IMG/VR virus record: IMGVR_UViG_3300010373_000098
Location: 1-34,582 of that record
Direction: 5' to 3' (one strand)
DNA: 34,582 nt
From: a virus
Below, in pieces: positions 5,751 through 24,279 of this stretch; within the stretch, counting starts at the first letter, position 1; the number at the start of each line of letters is the position of its first letter. Both the position numbers and the translations under genes were made by a program. The notes under the pieces were generated by a model. That model was given only the letters and a program-made list of their open reading frames with translations, did no database searches and was not told where the DNA came from.

Positions 5751-6352
5751 GGTATGACTTCCACGGCCTGAAGGCCATCGACGCTGATGGCTGCAAGACC
5801 CTGATTAGCCAAGACGGTGGAGAATGCATCGCCCTCGAAGCGGACAGGGACGTAGAACTGCCCGTCATAGCTTGGGATGACGCCAGCTGCCGGCGCAGAC
5901 ACAAAGGTAATCGCCCCGGTCGAATTGACGGTATAATCCGTGGTCAAGACCTTCGGCACGCCATTCAGATAGACGACAAGCGTCCCGGCCTTGAGGTAGC
6001 GAATAATCCGCTCATAGGGATTGTTCCCCGCCGTGTAGGTCTTGATGCATTGGAAGGTAGTTTGAACGCCATCGCCGATGCCGATCTGTTCGCCGACGCA
6101 CTGATAGTCGGCCCAGTCCTTGAACAGGAAGGCTTTGAAGTCGCCGCGACGATCAAACCAGAAGGCGCGCAAGGCCGTGACGACAGAAGCCGCCGCATTA
6201 TCCAGCATGAAGGAATAGACATGCCGCGCGATCGACAGGTTCTGCAGGCGCCGTTCCTGCATGTTGACCGAGACAACCTTGTCGGTGGAAAAGGTCGGGC
6301 CGCCCTTGAAGCCGACCGACAGCGTCTCCGGCATGATCAGATTATCGACCAT
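5747..6352 (-). CDS. DUF2460 distal tail protein (GTA gp12-like)
   Basis: A 201-residue protein with the DUF2460 pattern: an early GGPTFSTD motif, a central ALRAFWFDRRGDFKAFLFKDWADY block (about residues 60-85) and a DGVQTTFQ segment followed by a strand-rich domain with TDYTVNSTGAITFVSAP. Members form the distal tail ring below the tape measure. The start at 6352 has a GAGG ribosome site 8-9 bases away and overlaps the 3' end of the tape measure gene by 11 bases. It is followed by the DUF2163 gene with a GTGA overlap, the standard order in GTA-like tails. Confidence 0.9.
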   Translation of the reverse strand: MVDNLIMPETLSVGFKGGPTFSTDKVVSVNMQERRLQNLSIARHVYSFMLDNAAASVVTALRAFWFDRRGDFKAFLFKDWADYQCVGEQIGIGDGVQTTFQCIKTYTAGNNPYERIIRYLKAGTLVVYLNGVPKVLTTDYTVNSTGAITFVSAPAAGVIPSYDGQFYVPVRFEGDAFSTVLANQGLAAISVDGLQAVEVIP

Positions 6353-9300
6353 TGACGGACCTCAGAGCGTCACGAATGCCAAGCGCGGTCTGCCGGCGGA
6401 TTTCCGCCTGGCTGGCTGGTGATGGCGGCGTGTTGCCGTTCCAGTTGTGGGTCTGGTTGATGACAATCGGGCGATTGTCGTTAGTACCAGATGACCCTGC
6501 GCTTCCAGACCCCGGCCGCACATCGGCAAACTGCTGCGGAGTGGCAATGATCACCTTCTCGTTTGGGTTCTTGAAGAACTCGACCTTTTGAGTGTCACTG
6601 CTATCGATGCCACCAGTGGCAAAACCCATTACCCCGTTCGTTTTGGCGAGCGCTTGCGCATAGGCTTGGGCATATTGAGTTGTGCCAGGCGTGAGCCCAT
6701 TGAGCAGCGCGTTGTTTGGATCCCCGCCGTGCAGGGCTGAATAGGCGCCTCCGCTCGACAACGATCCGCCGCCGGTCGGGTTGCCAACCGATGACATGCC
6801 GCCATAGGTGACGGCATAGGCGATCTGCTCGGGAGAGGCGCCCAAGCCACTCGAGCCATAGCCAACTGGTCCGCCCCCACCGATCGCAGCATAGTTGGCC
6901 CGCGCAGTGCCGAGCGCCTGAAGGTATTGCATAAACTGCGCATCACCCTGGCTGCTGCCGCCCGCCGACGAAGACCCGCCGGACGACAGACCCGAGCTGG
7001 CGGCCAATCCTGCCGTCTTGATGTCGTCGAGCAGTTGCGCAGTCTTCTGCGTCGCCGCCTCGATGTTCATCAGGACGACCCAGTAGCGATCGTTTTCCTT
7101 GGTGGCCTCGGTGCCGGTATAGCCAGATTGCGGGTTGGCGAGCGCCGAGCGCTGCTGTGGCGTGAAGATAGCCACGGTCTCGTCCGGTGATTTGAAGAAC
7201 GAGACCTGCTGCGTATCGCCAGGATGAATGACACCGCCAGTAGCGAAGCGAGTGACGTTGACGGTGCCCATTGGGCTGTCTCCGCTACCGCCCTGACTGC
7301 CATAGCCAGTGCTGGGCACCTGGTAGGCCGACATGGATGGCCCTGACTGCTGGCCAGGCACGCCACCATAACGGGTCACGCCAACGCCGCTGGTGCCGCC
7401 GGATGAATTGGGGACATCGTAAATCGACTGCGTTCCCGAGCCGACCTGCTGCGTCCTGACGGTGATCGTGACGGTCTTGTCGGGGAGATGCGCGATGCTG
7501 TTGCTAAGCGTCTGGACGTCGCCGGTAAGCTGGCGCACCTTTTCCTGACCCTGAACGATGCTGTTGATGAATTCGTTGACGCTGGCATTGTCGCCGCCAA
7601 GGGCGATCAGGCTGGCGCGTACCTGTTCAATGGCGTCATGTACGGCTCGCACCGAGGCCGTGCCCGAGTCGTATCGCTTGAAAATCTGGTCGATCGCATC
7701 GTAGGCGTTGGTGATGTCTGCCTGGGTTCCCTTGTCGCCGATGCCAAAGAGGGCATCTGGCGGCAGGTTCGAAATCGCGTCGAGTTGGTCCTTGATGTCG
7801 ACGATCTGCGACTTGAACCCCTCAAGCTTCTGCGTTGCGTCATTGATCCCGATCAACTGGTCGAGCTTGGCCTGTCCGAACAACTGGGTGATGTTAATGA
7901 TCGGCTCGGCGATATTGCCGATTTCGACCTTAACCCCAGCAGCTGCACTCCCCACCCGGCTGATTGCCACCCCGAACTCATTTGCGCCACCGATGGCCTG
8001 GTCAAAGCTGATGCCGCTAAGAGCTTTGAGGCTCGCTTCCTGGACGCTGAGATTTCGCGCCTGATTGAAGGTGTCGAGCGCCGCGCCGGAAGCGTGCGCC
8101 TTCACGATCATGTCGTCGAAGCGCAGGTTGATGTTGGCGATGGCACGGGCATAGGACGTCATGCCGGAAGTATCGGCGCTGTCTTGCACGTTCTTCAGCG
8201 CGTCAGCAGCAGCGTTGCCGGCTGAGACCATGTTGGCGATGATGTTAGCACCTTCATCGCCGCGCCCAACGGTGCTTCCGGCAAAGACGTTGGCCGCCGC
8301 GCCCACGCCACGCAACTTCAGTTCGAGCTCGGCCGCCTTGTTGGCCGAGTCCTGCAATGACGAGGCGAATTCATGGGCGTTTTTGTTCAACGCAGGGTCA
8401 ATGCGCAACTCGCCGAGCTTCGTCTGCACATCGCCGATGCTGATAGAGCCATTTTTGATCTCATCGCCGAGCTGCATAAATGCGTCGGAGCCAGCCGAGC
8501 CAAACAGGGCGAAATCGTTGCCGGTGACCGACAACCTGCTGCTGATGTCGGTCAGATAGGATTGGATCAGGTCTTTGTTGGCCTCGATCGCCTCCTTGGT
8601 GTCGGCGGCAGCGACGACGGTGGGGATTTTCGCCGCCTGCTCTTCATAAGCCTTCGCAGCATCGCCAGCCGCTGGATAAGCAGACGTGATCTCATCTATC
8701 AGCTTTTTGTGGTTTTCAAGGACGGTGTTGACGTCAGAAATGCCGCTGCCGAACCCACTAAATGCCTTTGCCGCCAGATCAAGGCCGATCGTCAGGCCCA
8801 GGAACCCAATTACGTAAGGGTTGAAAATGACAGACGCCAGCCCGCCAAACGCCTTCATGAAATTGGAGAGGGTGAGAACGCTGGTACCGGTCGAAACCAG
8901 CCGCTCATTGAGGACGATAAGCGAGCCGGGGATGCGCGAGAAGTTGCCCCGCGCCACCTCGGCGCCCAACACTGAAAACTCACGAGTAACACCCGCGCCA
9001 AGACCTGCTGTGTGTGCAGAGGCGACGCCGAGAGATTCCATGCCTGCGGCGGCACCCCGGCTGGCACCAGCTACGCCATCTTCGGCGACGGCCAATTCCC
9101 GGAAGACGGCAGCACTATCGCGCGCCGACTTCGTGGTGTTATTAATTAGGCCAAAGCTTTCATTGAGTGAATTGCGGAAGTTCGTGCCTGCCTGCTGTGC
9201 GGCAAAGGCTTGGACTTGCGCTTCAGTCAGGCCACGAAATGCCGCCGTCGCTTCGAGCGTCGCGGCAGTCATGACGCCTTCGGATTCGGCAATGCCGAGC

Positions 9301-13039: not shown

Positions 13040-13066
13040 TTTAGCGGAGCAAGCCAGGAGATGGAA

Positions 13067-13192
13067 ATGACCTACAAATGCGTTAGTTCTTCGAACGAAA
13101 TTCGCACCTTCAATAGCTACGAAGCCGCCTATCGGTTTGTAATGAAAGAAGGCGACCTTTCCCGTCTCTGGACCTTGGAGCGCGTGTCGTGA
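13067..13192 (+). CDS. 41-residue protein, first gene of the moron
   Basis: Starts MTYKCVSSSNEIRTF and ends LWTLERVS. The second of two nearby ATG codons is chosen because AGGAG lies 6 bases before it, whereas the first ATG touches that site. The peptide has an aromatic and acidic/basic mix with no membrane segment. It has its own promoter, divergent from the ribbon-helix-helix gene, and its TGA overlaps the next start (GTGA). Small size, own promoter and a dedicated repressor resemble anti-defence loci, but no family was recognised. Confidence 0.7.
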   Translation: MTYKCVSSSNEIRTFNSYEAAYRFVMKEGDLSRLWTLERVS

Positions 13193-20440: not shown

Positions 20441-21780
20441 CAGCCGGTCCTGAAGCTAACAGAGTAAGCGGTTGGCGCTTCTGGGTTGAGCATCAGATCA
20501 GTCAACGCCCAGACCAGCGCATCAACGCGATCAGGCGAGCCTTCGCCGACATACCCTGAAGGTGTGAAGTTGCACATCTGGTCCTCAAGATCTGGAAACT
20601 CGCCCACATGATGCACCTTGCCTTGCTAGTAGAGGGCGCTAACCGGTTCAGCCCGAACGACCTTGCCACGACTTGCGACAACCTCTTTGAACGCTGCCTT
20701 CTTGTCCGCCGTCGCGATCGTGAAGCGAACCATGTCGCCGCCAAAGTTGCGTTCTGCTACGATCCTGTCCGCACCGTGCAAACGGTAGAGGTCAACAGCT
20801 CGCCTACCCCAGCCTTCGGGGGATAACTGGCAAGTGCCGTCCTGTAGAACGTAGCCGTGGCCATCTATTCCAAGTCCGGCCACCACGATGCCGATATCGT
20901 CGCCGCCGCCATCGCCGCGAGTGCCCGATGGATCGATCGCAACGACAATCCGACGCATCTGTGGGGCTGCAGAGACGCGCAGGCTATCGATGCCTGGCAT
21001 GACCTTGCCGTCTGGCGCTTCTCGATCTTCCTGAGACCACAAAGCACCGCTGACTTCGCTGGCCCATTCGCCAGCCTCGAACCTCAGCCTCTTGGCTGCA
21101 GACATCGAAGCCAGAACATCGAAATATTCAGGCGGAAGGTTTTCTGCGTTGTCGGTTGGGTTTACCCTCATCTCGACATATTCATCGGGATTGGGGAGCG
21201 CTTCCTTGGTGCCAGGCTTCAATTTTGCCCGGAAAAGCTGGTAGCTCCAATGCAGTTTTGACGGCGGGTTGCAGTCGAAGTAAGCTTTGAGCGACAGAAA
21301 TGCCCGTCCTGCTGCTTTGGCTATTTCGGGCGCCAACGCTACTTTCTGCGCCAGTCGAGACATTGCAGTTTCAACGGAAGCCCAAGGAATCTGGCTACTT
21401 TCGTTGAAATAGAGGGTCGCGTACTCTTGACCTAGGATCTTCTCGACCCGATCCTTATCGTCCAGACCGCCTATCCAGACCTGGGAACCGTTCGGTAGCT
21501 CAACGAAGAAATCCGTCTTGTCGAACCTGACGAGCAGTGCCGGAAAACAGAGCTTCAATACCCTTGGGAGCGTATCAGACCAAACCGATGTCTTGGCGTG
21601 GTTGAAGCGGAACCGGAAAATCACATGCCGCGATCCCGGCGCATTTAAAGCGCGCTGGATCAACGCTCTGATGAGGATGAAGGTTTTGCCGGATCTTGAC
21701 CCACCTCGCAGCATAACGTTGCGTGCCGGACCGGCCAGAAGGCGATTAGCCTCCCGTTGCTTCTCCGTCAGTTGAACCAT
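20440..21780 (-). pseudogene. terL: terminase large subunit interrupted by an in-frame amber codon
   Basis: The intact frame would encode 446 residues, usual for this family. Walker A is RGGSRSGKT at 25-33, Walker B with the catalytic Glu is ATLYFNE at 121-127, and the nuclease domain starts with AIDPSGT (Asp 283) and VAERN (Glu 343). Codon 385 is TAG (20626-20628), giving a 384-residue product. The frame continues after it for 61 codons with family-typical sequence (QGKVHHVGEFPDLEDQM, SPDRVDALVWALTDL) and stops at 20440-20442, overlapping the portal start. Relatives usually have Glu (GAG) at the TAG position. The lost part holds the last metal-binding Asp (417 or 420), so the short product should lack nuclease activity. 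Readthrough, host suppression or a sequencing error are alternatives. Confidence 0.85.
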
Positions 21781-23085: not shown

Positions 23086-23187
23086 TCACCGGCAATTTGG
23101 ATCGACTAGGAACCTTTGATAGCTGCATGGCTGTTGAGAAGCGCATGCTGTGAGGCAAAGAAGAAGGGCCAGGAGTGCAAACTGCAT
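23086..23187 (-). CDS. 33-residue lipoprotein
   Basis: MQFALLALLLCLTAC is a short signal peptide with a lipobox (LTAC, Cys 15), followed by 18 residues with two more cysteines (ASQQPCSYQRFLVDPNCR). The ATG overlaps the preceding TAA as TAATG, strong support despite the small size. After processing, an 19-residue lipidated peptide would remain. Its neighbour is a small membrane protein. Outer-membrane spanins of the Rz1 type are similar in size, but there is no Pro-rich part and no inner-membrane partner with a coiled coil adjacent. Confidence 0.7.
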   Translation of the reverse strand: MQFALLALLLCLTACASQQPCSYQRFLVDPNCR

Positions 23188-23363
23188 TAACCGAACTCCT
23201 TGAGCATCTCCGCCTGGCGCTCAAGCCACTCGATGACCTGGGCGATTGGCATGGAAGCCGCCATCAGGTTCACCGCGCATTCCCCGAACTGCTTGGACTG
23301 CTCTGCAACGAAGCGGGCTGTCGCCTGTCTTGCAATTCGGTCAATGTCGCTGGGTTCAGCCAT
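23187..23363 (-). CDS. 58-residue helical protein, first gene of the late operon
   Basis: Starts MAEPSDIDRIARQATARF and ends WLERQAEMLKEFG. It is an amphipathic, charged helical protein without membrane segment. It lacks its own ribosome site; its ATG follows directly on a TAA (TAAATG) that closes a short leader frame having a good AGGAG site, so translation is probably coupled. It is the first sizeable gene after the promoter at 23.6 kb. Confidence 0.65.
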   Translation of the reverse strand: MAEPSDIDRIARQATARFVAEQSKQFGECAVNLMAASMPIAQVIEWLERQAEMLKEFG

Positions 23364-23559: not shown

Positions 23560-23580
23560 TCGCCCAAATCACCTGCGGAA

Positions 23581-23609
23581 AATATACAGGCGCTTTCTTT
23601 CTATTGCAA
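23581..23609 (-). promoter_or_regulatory. probable late promoter (sigma70 type)
   Basis: On the minus strand TTGCAA (23609-23604), a 17-base spacer and TATATT (23586-23581). Start of transcription is expected near 23574. The site lies in the gap between the NusG-like gene stop (23614) and the first late gene (23363), the position of the Q-controlled promoter in lambdoid phages. Confidence 0.65.
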
Positions 23610-23613
23610 GTGG

Positions 23614-24279
23614 CTATGCAACCAGCTTTACCGCATCGAACGGCACAGAGATTTCCTCGACCACACCAGTCCGGAGATTTTCCAATATCGCCTTGAGGTG
23701 CTGGTTATCCTCCCAGCCTGTAAGCGTGGCCTCGTGGCCTATGCCCTGCCCCCAGAGGATCTTGACCGTCTGGCCTGCATTGAGCTTTCGCTTGGCCGCA
23801 GCAAGCGCTTTCTGAGCCGTTTTGGTGAGGGTTGCGCGCTCTGATGAGTTGAGCGCCGCGACTTCCTTATCCGCCTTCGTGTGGCTGTTGGCCTCGATTG
23901 TGCGCATAGTGATGATGTCGACCACTGAGACGTTGATAGGTATCCGCTGGTCACCAATGTGCGAGACGAGCAGACCAGCCACACCAGGCACGCCGCGAAG
24001 TCTCTCAAAGTCCGTCACGCCGTGGACGAACATATACCCCTGCAGAAGCGGAAACCGGCGCAGCTCGTAGACGCCAGTTTTCTTGCGGTTGCGGATCACT
24101 TTGAACTCTGCCGGCATGTAGTGCTGATAGCCGGCCTCAGATAGCGCACGCTCAACTGCTGAGACATTGGCGCATAGGCTCGTGACAATACGGTACCCCT
24201 TCCCGCGCGTAGTTAGCTCGGTCTCAAATTGCCTTTGAGGCATCTGGGCACCTGGGGTTGTGCGAATTGCTAGCCACAT
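23614..24279 (-). CDS. NusG/RfaH-like transcription elongation or antitermination factor
   Basis: 221 residues from the ATG at 24279 (CGGGGA site 6 bases upstream; an upstream TTG at 24294 is less likely). The middle part shows the NGN-domain pattern (AGYQHYMPAEFKVIRNRKK, FPLLQGYMFVHG, LRGVPGVAGLLV) and the C-terminus a KOW-like segment (LNAGQTVKILWGQGIGHEATL). NusG paralogues bind RNA polymerase and suppress pausing and termination; some act only on selected operons. It is the last early gene and lies directly before the late promoter, so a role in switching on the terminator-containing late operon is inferred. Confidence 0.85.
   Translation of the reverse strand: MWLAIRTTPGAQMPQRQFETELTTRGKGYRIVTSLCANVSAVERALSEAGYQHYMPAEFKVIRNRKKTGVYELRRFPLLQGYMFVHGVTDFERLRGVPGVAGLLVSHIGDQRIPINVSVVDIITMRTIEANSHTKADKEVAALNSSERATLTKTAQKALAAAKRKLNAGQTVKILWGQGIGHEATLTGWEDNQHLKAILENLRTGVVEEISVPFDAVKLVA

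Follow-up and report, generated by a model that had tools for sequence, protein, structure and literature searches.

To our knowledge, the known phage late antiterminators Q, Q21, p7 and GafZ are unrelated small proteins, and the specialised NusG paralogues known so far act on operons of hosts or plasmids. The specialised NusG families that have been named are TaA, UpxY, RfaH, ActX and LoaP, none of them described as a phage family, and LoaP is reported to bind a leader hairpin and to antagonise NusA at the leader terminator (PMC12691694). A prophage study mentions the protein family considered below as an antiterminator (PMC12429752). Here, we describe a locus in an IMG/VR virus record of 34,582 bases, analysed over its whole length and referred to as the window. 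Its combination of promoter, leader and nusG-like gene recurs before the structural genes in phages and prophages of Rhizobium-type bacteria, where the three elements look like an on-switch for late genes.

The nusG-like gene (23614-24279, minus strand) encodes 221 amino acids, comprising an NGN domain, a long helix and a weak KOW-like C-terminus. The original prediction had described the product as an NGN/KOW protein, and its NGN half is borne out by several methods. The Pfam NusG family (PF02357) matches with 28.7 bits at a cut-off of 22.2 and is found at E ≤ 0.01 in 28 of 30 relatives, while the PHROG 'transcription antiterminator' families phrog_25909 and phrog_6386 match at 8.6e-31 and 3e-12. 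AlphaFold2 modelled residues 1-120 mostly with block-mean pLDDT values of 85-96, apart from an insert (about 11-40) at 65-76; beyond them come an exceptionally long helix (119-165) and a C-terminus of low confidence. Comparing the predicted structure with RfaH and NusG, as had been proposed, revealed the NGN fold: all five PDB matches obtained by Foldseek with E ≤ 0.001 are NusG or RfaH, the top ones being NusG NGN domains and RfaH with ops DNA. The NCBIfam models for RfaH (TIGR01955; 23.9 bits, cut-off 144.5) and UpxY (NF033644; 31.5 bits, cut-off 100) both scored below threshold. Homology to lambda Q was not seen in Pfam, PHROGs or NCBIfam, which returned only NusG/antiterminator NGN families, apart from weak chance matches.

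The KOW half of the description fared less well. Pfam gave no KOW match in the window protein and AlphaFold2 confidence is low across this region; an hhalign profile alignment to the Rhizobium housekeeping NusG runs into the KOW domain, which points weakly to a C-terminal KOW domain. By profile comparison with host NusG, a KOW-like end is shared by the near relatives L004 and L111 and is missing in L107, L108 and L005, of which L107 and L108 nonetheless have an almost identical leader. In phiLM21-type proteins (for example L026:5971-6651), AlphaFold2 predicts a helical C-terminal part after the NGN domain in place of KOW. Because several members have thus lost or replaced KOW and kept the leader, the NGN domain and the long helix are the likelier leader-reading parts, if the protein reads the leader. 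We tentatively suggest that these proteins form a virus-borne class of specialised NusG, a Q-equivalent of rhizobial phages that would read the RNA at +1 through NGN and the long helix instead of KOW; equally tentatively, this would place the viral class beside TaA, UpxY, RfaH, ActX and LoaP. Separately, the Rhizobium genome G001 encodes another member of the NusG family that has a KOW-like end (L243:1273-1938, minus strand), distinct from both the housekeeping NusG and the phage type.

Five bases past the stop of the nusG-like gene, direct reading of the minus strand confirms the predicted promoter, with the -35 hexamer TTGCAA (23604-23609) separated by 17 nt from the -10 hexamer TATATT (23581-23586). 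This was the only site returned by a promoter scan of 20.3-26.0 kb. The consensus score alone does not exceed chance (1 site found, 2.4 expected), so we rejected it as a measure of significance; it is conservation in relatives that makes the promoter credible. The pattern TTG-N17-TAnnnT lies 6-11 nt ahead of the leader motif in 39 of 46 loci (a few have 18-nt spacing), and a promoter score of at least 8/12 is reached in 76% of loci compared with 0.5% of random positions. The gene-promoter pair sought in related phages therefore recurs, and in most loci the promoter sits within, or just past, the end of the nusG-like gene. Judging from the -10 spacing, transcription is predicted to start at 23572-23574, where the leaders of nearly all relatives begin.

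Downstream on the same strand, the first late open reading frame (58 amino acids; 23187-23363) opens with an ATG at 23363, and the late operon of the window continues with terminase and structural genes (Pfam, PHROG), including the terminase large subunit at 20626-21780. The structural operon is ~23 kb long. The terminator-like hairpins that had been reported within it are present. A strong one (22640-22619) lies about 930 nt past the predicted start and ahead of the terminase genes, a second (16775-16746) has a 13-bp stem and a poor T tail, and the third (10776-10754), read directly, consists of GGCCGC/GCGGCC followed by TTTTCTT.

We read this arrangement as a Q-like switch of phage late transcription, in which a viral NusG paralogue would be loaded at the leader and RNA polymerase would then ignore terminators; we give this reading a probability of roughly two in three. 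In this scheme, the early region ends in a sigma70-type promoter, whose short transcript would start with the structured leader RNA before running into intrinsic terminators. The virus-specific NusG paralogue, as product of the last early gene, would be brought onto RNA polymerase at the leader. It would probably do so by attaching to the folded RNA, much as LoaP does to its hairpin, and exposed non-template DNA might help, as it does with RfaH. By staying on the polymerase via its NGN domain, the protein may allow read-through of the terminators of the structural operon. Several points weigh against this reading: taken alone, the leader match of the window is weak, one stem of the leader (P2, described below) lacks covariation support in the window class, strong terminators within 700 nt were recognised in a minority of loci, three leader-bearing records show no nusG-like gene, and the presumed link between protein and leader is positional.

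A search of viral contigs with the single protein returned zero relatives, and a 3-sequence protein alignment returned 70 loci with relatives. Downstream of the nusG-like stop, these have in common the motif (G/C)TGATTTG and, behind it, a structured stretch rich in GC, and the conserved leader, ~84-110 nt in length, begins at the predicted +1. A MAFFT alignment of all leader classes (A2) misplaced the central helix and was rejected; covariation was therefore judged on A4 (12 leaders), which was not fitted to structure, and on the model-fitted A5 (41 distinct rows). A4 supports the helices P1 (UGGG:CCCA), P2 (GUCG:CGAC), P3 and P4, with 99.2% of cells paired and 4 pairs changed on both sides, a level reached in 0 of 500 shuffles. 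In A5, 98.1% of cells are paired and the covariation score is 0.511 as against 0.131 ± 0.012 after shuffling and at most 0.10 with slid partners, a figure inflated by the fitting of this alignment to structure, although the unfitted A4 points in the same direction. A4 shows covariation, too, for an alternative long-range pairing between the 5' end and the 3' GCRYCC, which is mutually exclusive with the first pairing. The covariance model R1, built from the A4 leaders, gave 52 matches in 73 sources, located at or near the ends of nusG-like genes except for a few second copies (L040, L021 and their duplicates). Rfam 15 contained no match to the leader at gathering score, and weak matches far below the gathering scores were discarded. 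The second leader copies lie 0.6-1.8 kb past the first (L040:7936-8018, L021:7658-7764, L081:5630-5742 and 6274-6356), and the one in L021 is preceded by the apparent end of a nusG-like gene. A further leader class (L012, L021, L040, L052, L053, L056, L058, L065, L066 and L069) lacks the TGATTTG start, has a similar 3' end (GGAGAACTGCATCCAAAATT) and is matched weakly by a second model, R2.

Both models were built without the window, and the site of its leader had been predicted beforehand. Across both strands of the window, R1 and R2 each score highest at 23572-23489 (minus strand; 5' GUGAUUUG). This segment falls exactly on the predicted transcription start and reads 5' GTGATTTGGGCG ... GCGGGAAACTCACC ... 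GCCAAAATTCA 3'. Taken alone, its scores are weak (R1, 13.5 bits, E 0.15; R2, 14.6 bits, E 0.03), and its minimum-free-energy z-scores of -1.7 to -1.8 are modest and no proof of structure. A sequence tag of the window class retrieved six further contigs, L109 being the same contig as L004. Hardly any change is seen among them in the -35 hexamer, in AGAAA, in the -10 region or in the leader between +1 and GCC(A/T)AAA, after which conservation collapses. The distance from the nusG-like gene to the promoter-leader unit varies from 37-38 nt (L107 and L108) to ~300 nt (L109/L004) and ~1.1 kb (L111); L110 and L112 include too little upstream DNA to place the gene. P2 has no covariation support within the window class, and since other members have A.A and a further mismatch in this helix, the class-specific fold of the window leader is putative. 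The original prediction had envisaged a leader of about 200 bases containing an inverted repeat before the first late gene. The leader and a perfect 9-bp repeat (TTTGCCGGC/GCCGGCAAA; 23485-23410) do exist, but sequence conservation among relatives stops before the repeat, which we consequently rejected as a regulatory element; the conserved part is 23572-23489.

The association between leader and gene also emerged from the RNA side. A protein-blind scan of viral contigs with the pattern CGGACC-N6-30-GGGAAYACTCGMCGG yielded at least 120 stretches in at least 80 viral loci, some of which overlap contigs already reached via the protein. Among the matches listed, 77 loci include enough upstream DNA; a same-strand nusG-like gene precedes the leader in 73 of these and lies within 150 nt in 68, compared with 2.75% of random positions. 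The predicted Q-like order with a NusG paralogue as candidate antiterminator thus recurs in related phages. Of the four exceptions, L184 has a NusG elsewhere in its full record, and the full records of L129, L134 and L181 contain no nusG-like gene. In bacterial genomes, leader matches occurred in 8 of 200 sampled from the family of G001 and in 2 of 190 sampled class-wide, one of the latter being the centre genome and the other probably chance; a match in G397 (E 8e-4) likewise looks like chance. The Rhizobiaceae loci found by RNA only (L083, L084, L086 and L087) carry a nusG-like gene directly upstream. In genome G077, this gene is ~4 kb away, with an opposite-strand methyltransferase cargo in between and a terminase after the leader. 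The portal protein directly after that terminase in this rhizobial prophage (611 amino acids; L092:1224-3059, minus strand) bears a C-terminal Acb1 (anti-CBASS) domain. The promoter-leader unit is likewise kept where an HNH gene or other open reading frames part it from nusG. Genome G137 harbours a solitary leader (L085; L091 at ~13060-13154, plus strand) flanked by a phage integrase and an HTH/MerR-like gene, with no nusG-like gene detected by the A9 profile, possibly a satellite using its helper's antiterminator or a decayed element.

Leaders of this last kind bear on a different explanation, in which the leader RNA antiterminates alone, like HK022 put, and the NusG-like protein does another job, for instance competing with host NusG or Rho. 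The position of the leader at the extreme 5' end of the transcript, its high degree of structure and its conservation would fit such a role, as would L129, L134, L181 and G137. We nevertheless consider this explanation unlikely in view of the 95% co-occurrence with a nusG-like gene among the matches listed and of their co-divergence, and the records without the gene are few and may be fragments or decayed. Leader distances correlate with nusG distances (r 0.78, Mantel p 0.0005), to which physical linkage of neighbours could contribute in part, whereas the partial r with the terminase large subunit (TerL) is 0.006. Moreover, the window shares 82% terminase identity with L062, a phage whose nusG and leader belong to another class, and together these observations indicate that nusG and leader behave as a cassette.

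Another explanation that we regard as improbable is that the protein binds promoter or non-template DNA, with AGAAA and TGATTTG forming a loading site as for lambda Q or RfaH/ops and the RNA fold being secondary. The AGAAA immediately inside the -35 hexamer (23598-23602, minus strand; aligned with L107-L112) is invariant in the window's own class while the remaining spacer varies, and is a possible protein or promoter element; TGATYTG stands at +1 in 74 of the 80 RNA-found loci among the matches listed, and in the phiLM21-type model the NGN domain is closest to RfaH bound to ops DNA. However, the frequent compensatory base changes in the leader would be meaningless for a DNA site, and AGAAA was not seen in the other leader classes.

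The switch reading also calls for terminators after the leader. Strong same-strand terminators were found in 19 of 56 loci within 700 nt (1.1 kb for the window), compared with 1 of 56 for the opposite strand and 2 of 56 for the 1.5 kb lying upstream; in the majority of loci, no strong terminator was recognised within 700 nt. In 11 of the 56, the terminator lies at +105 to +117, which would release a discrete RNA of ~130-150 nt. This could be taken to mean that promoter, leader and terminator make a stable small regulatory RNA, comparable to the 6S RNA of lambda pR'-tR', or control translation, with nusG linked by gene order only. We deem this very unlikely, as terminators elsewhere are much farther away (+932 in the window) and the unit keeps its same-strand place ahead of the late operon even where cargo parts it from nusG. 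In most of the 33 cases scanned, the first downstream open reading frame of at least 380 amino acids is the terminase large subunit. Some NusG relatives act genome-wide, and the protein might likewise work against the host or modulate Rho in general, without a specific target; we find this hardly credible, since it leaves the conserved, co-diverging leader unexplained.

The locus had been proposed as a possible new late switch. Its RNA element is new, whereas the protein label is not, GenBank and PHROGs already calling relatives NusG-like antiterminators. In the literature searched, with few subscription papers in scope, neither the leader RNA nor a phage late switch based on NusG turned up. 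If the switch reading is correct, the two fields of late antiterminators and specialised NusG proteins would meet in a phage that has recruited a NusG paralogue together with an RNA leader of its own. Near-identical leaders paired with proteins with or without KOW would provide a compact natural set for asking which NusG domain reads the signal. In rhizobial phages and prophages, late promoters could be recognised by a simple sequence tag, and the leader itself would represent an RNA family not yet described.

Among described systems, those annotated as relatives are phiLM21 gp34, the RHph 'NusG-like transcription antiterminator', phrog_25909 and phrog_6386, which belong to the same family and occupy the same place before the terminase genes; these entries are annotation only, and we found no leader or mechanism described for them. 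The GafZ protein of the Caulobacter gene transfer agent is likewise an alphaproteobacterial antiterminator of a phage-like structural operon, but it has a sigma-like helix-turn-helix, uses a DNA site between -35 and -10 and is not a NusG paralogue (PMC11150451). The HK022 put RNA resembles the leader as a structured RNA near a phage transcript start with proposed antitermination, yet put acts alone on early transcripts, while the leader here co-occurs with a partner protein gene. With RfaH/ops, the system shares the NGN fold, Foldseek top matches that include RfaH:ops, and long operons; it differs in its RfaH model score (23.9 versus a cut-off of 144.5) and in a signal that lies at +1 and is RNA-like. 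With lambda Q and pR'-tR', it shares the gene position, the adjoining late promoter and a terminator ahead of the late operon, and AGAAA after the -35 may compare with the Q-binding element; unlike Q, the protein is a NusG paralogue, and a transcribed conserved leader RNA replaces the Q-binding element. As a working parallel, the nearest is the LoaP system of Bacillota and others, which, with its dfn/mln hairpin, likewise combines a NusG paralogue, a structured 5' leader RNA, a downstream intrinsic terminator and a long operon (PMC12691694). LoaP serves host antibiotic operons through a small UNCG hairpin that it contacts with both domains, whereas the phage system has a multi-helix leader of ~84-110 nt at +1 and several of its proteins lack KOW.
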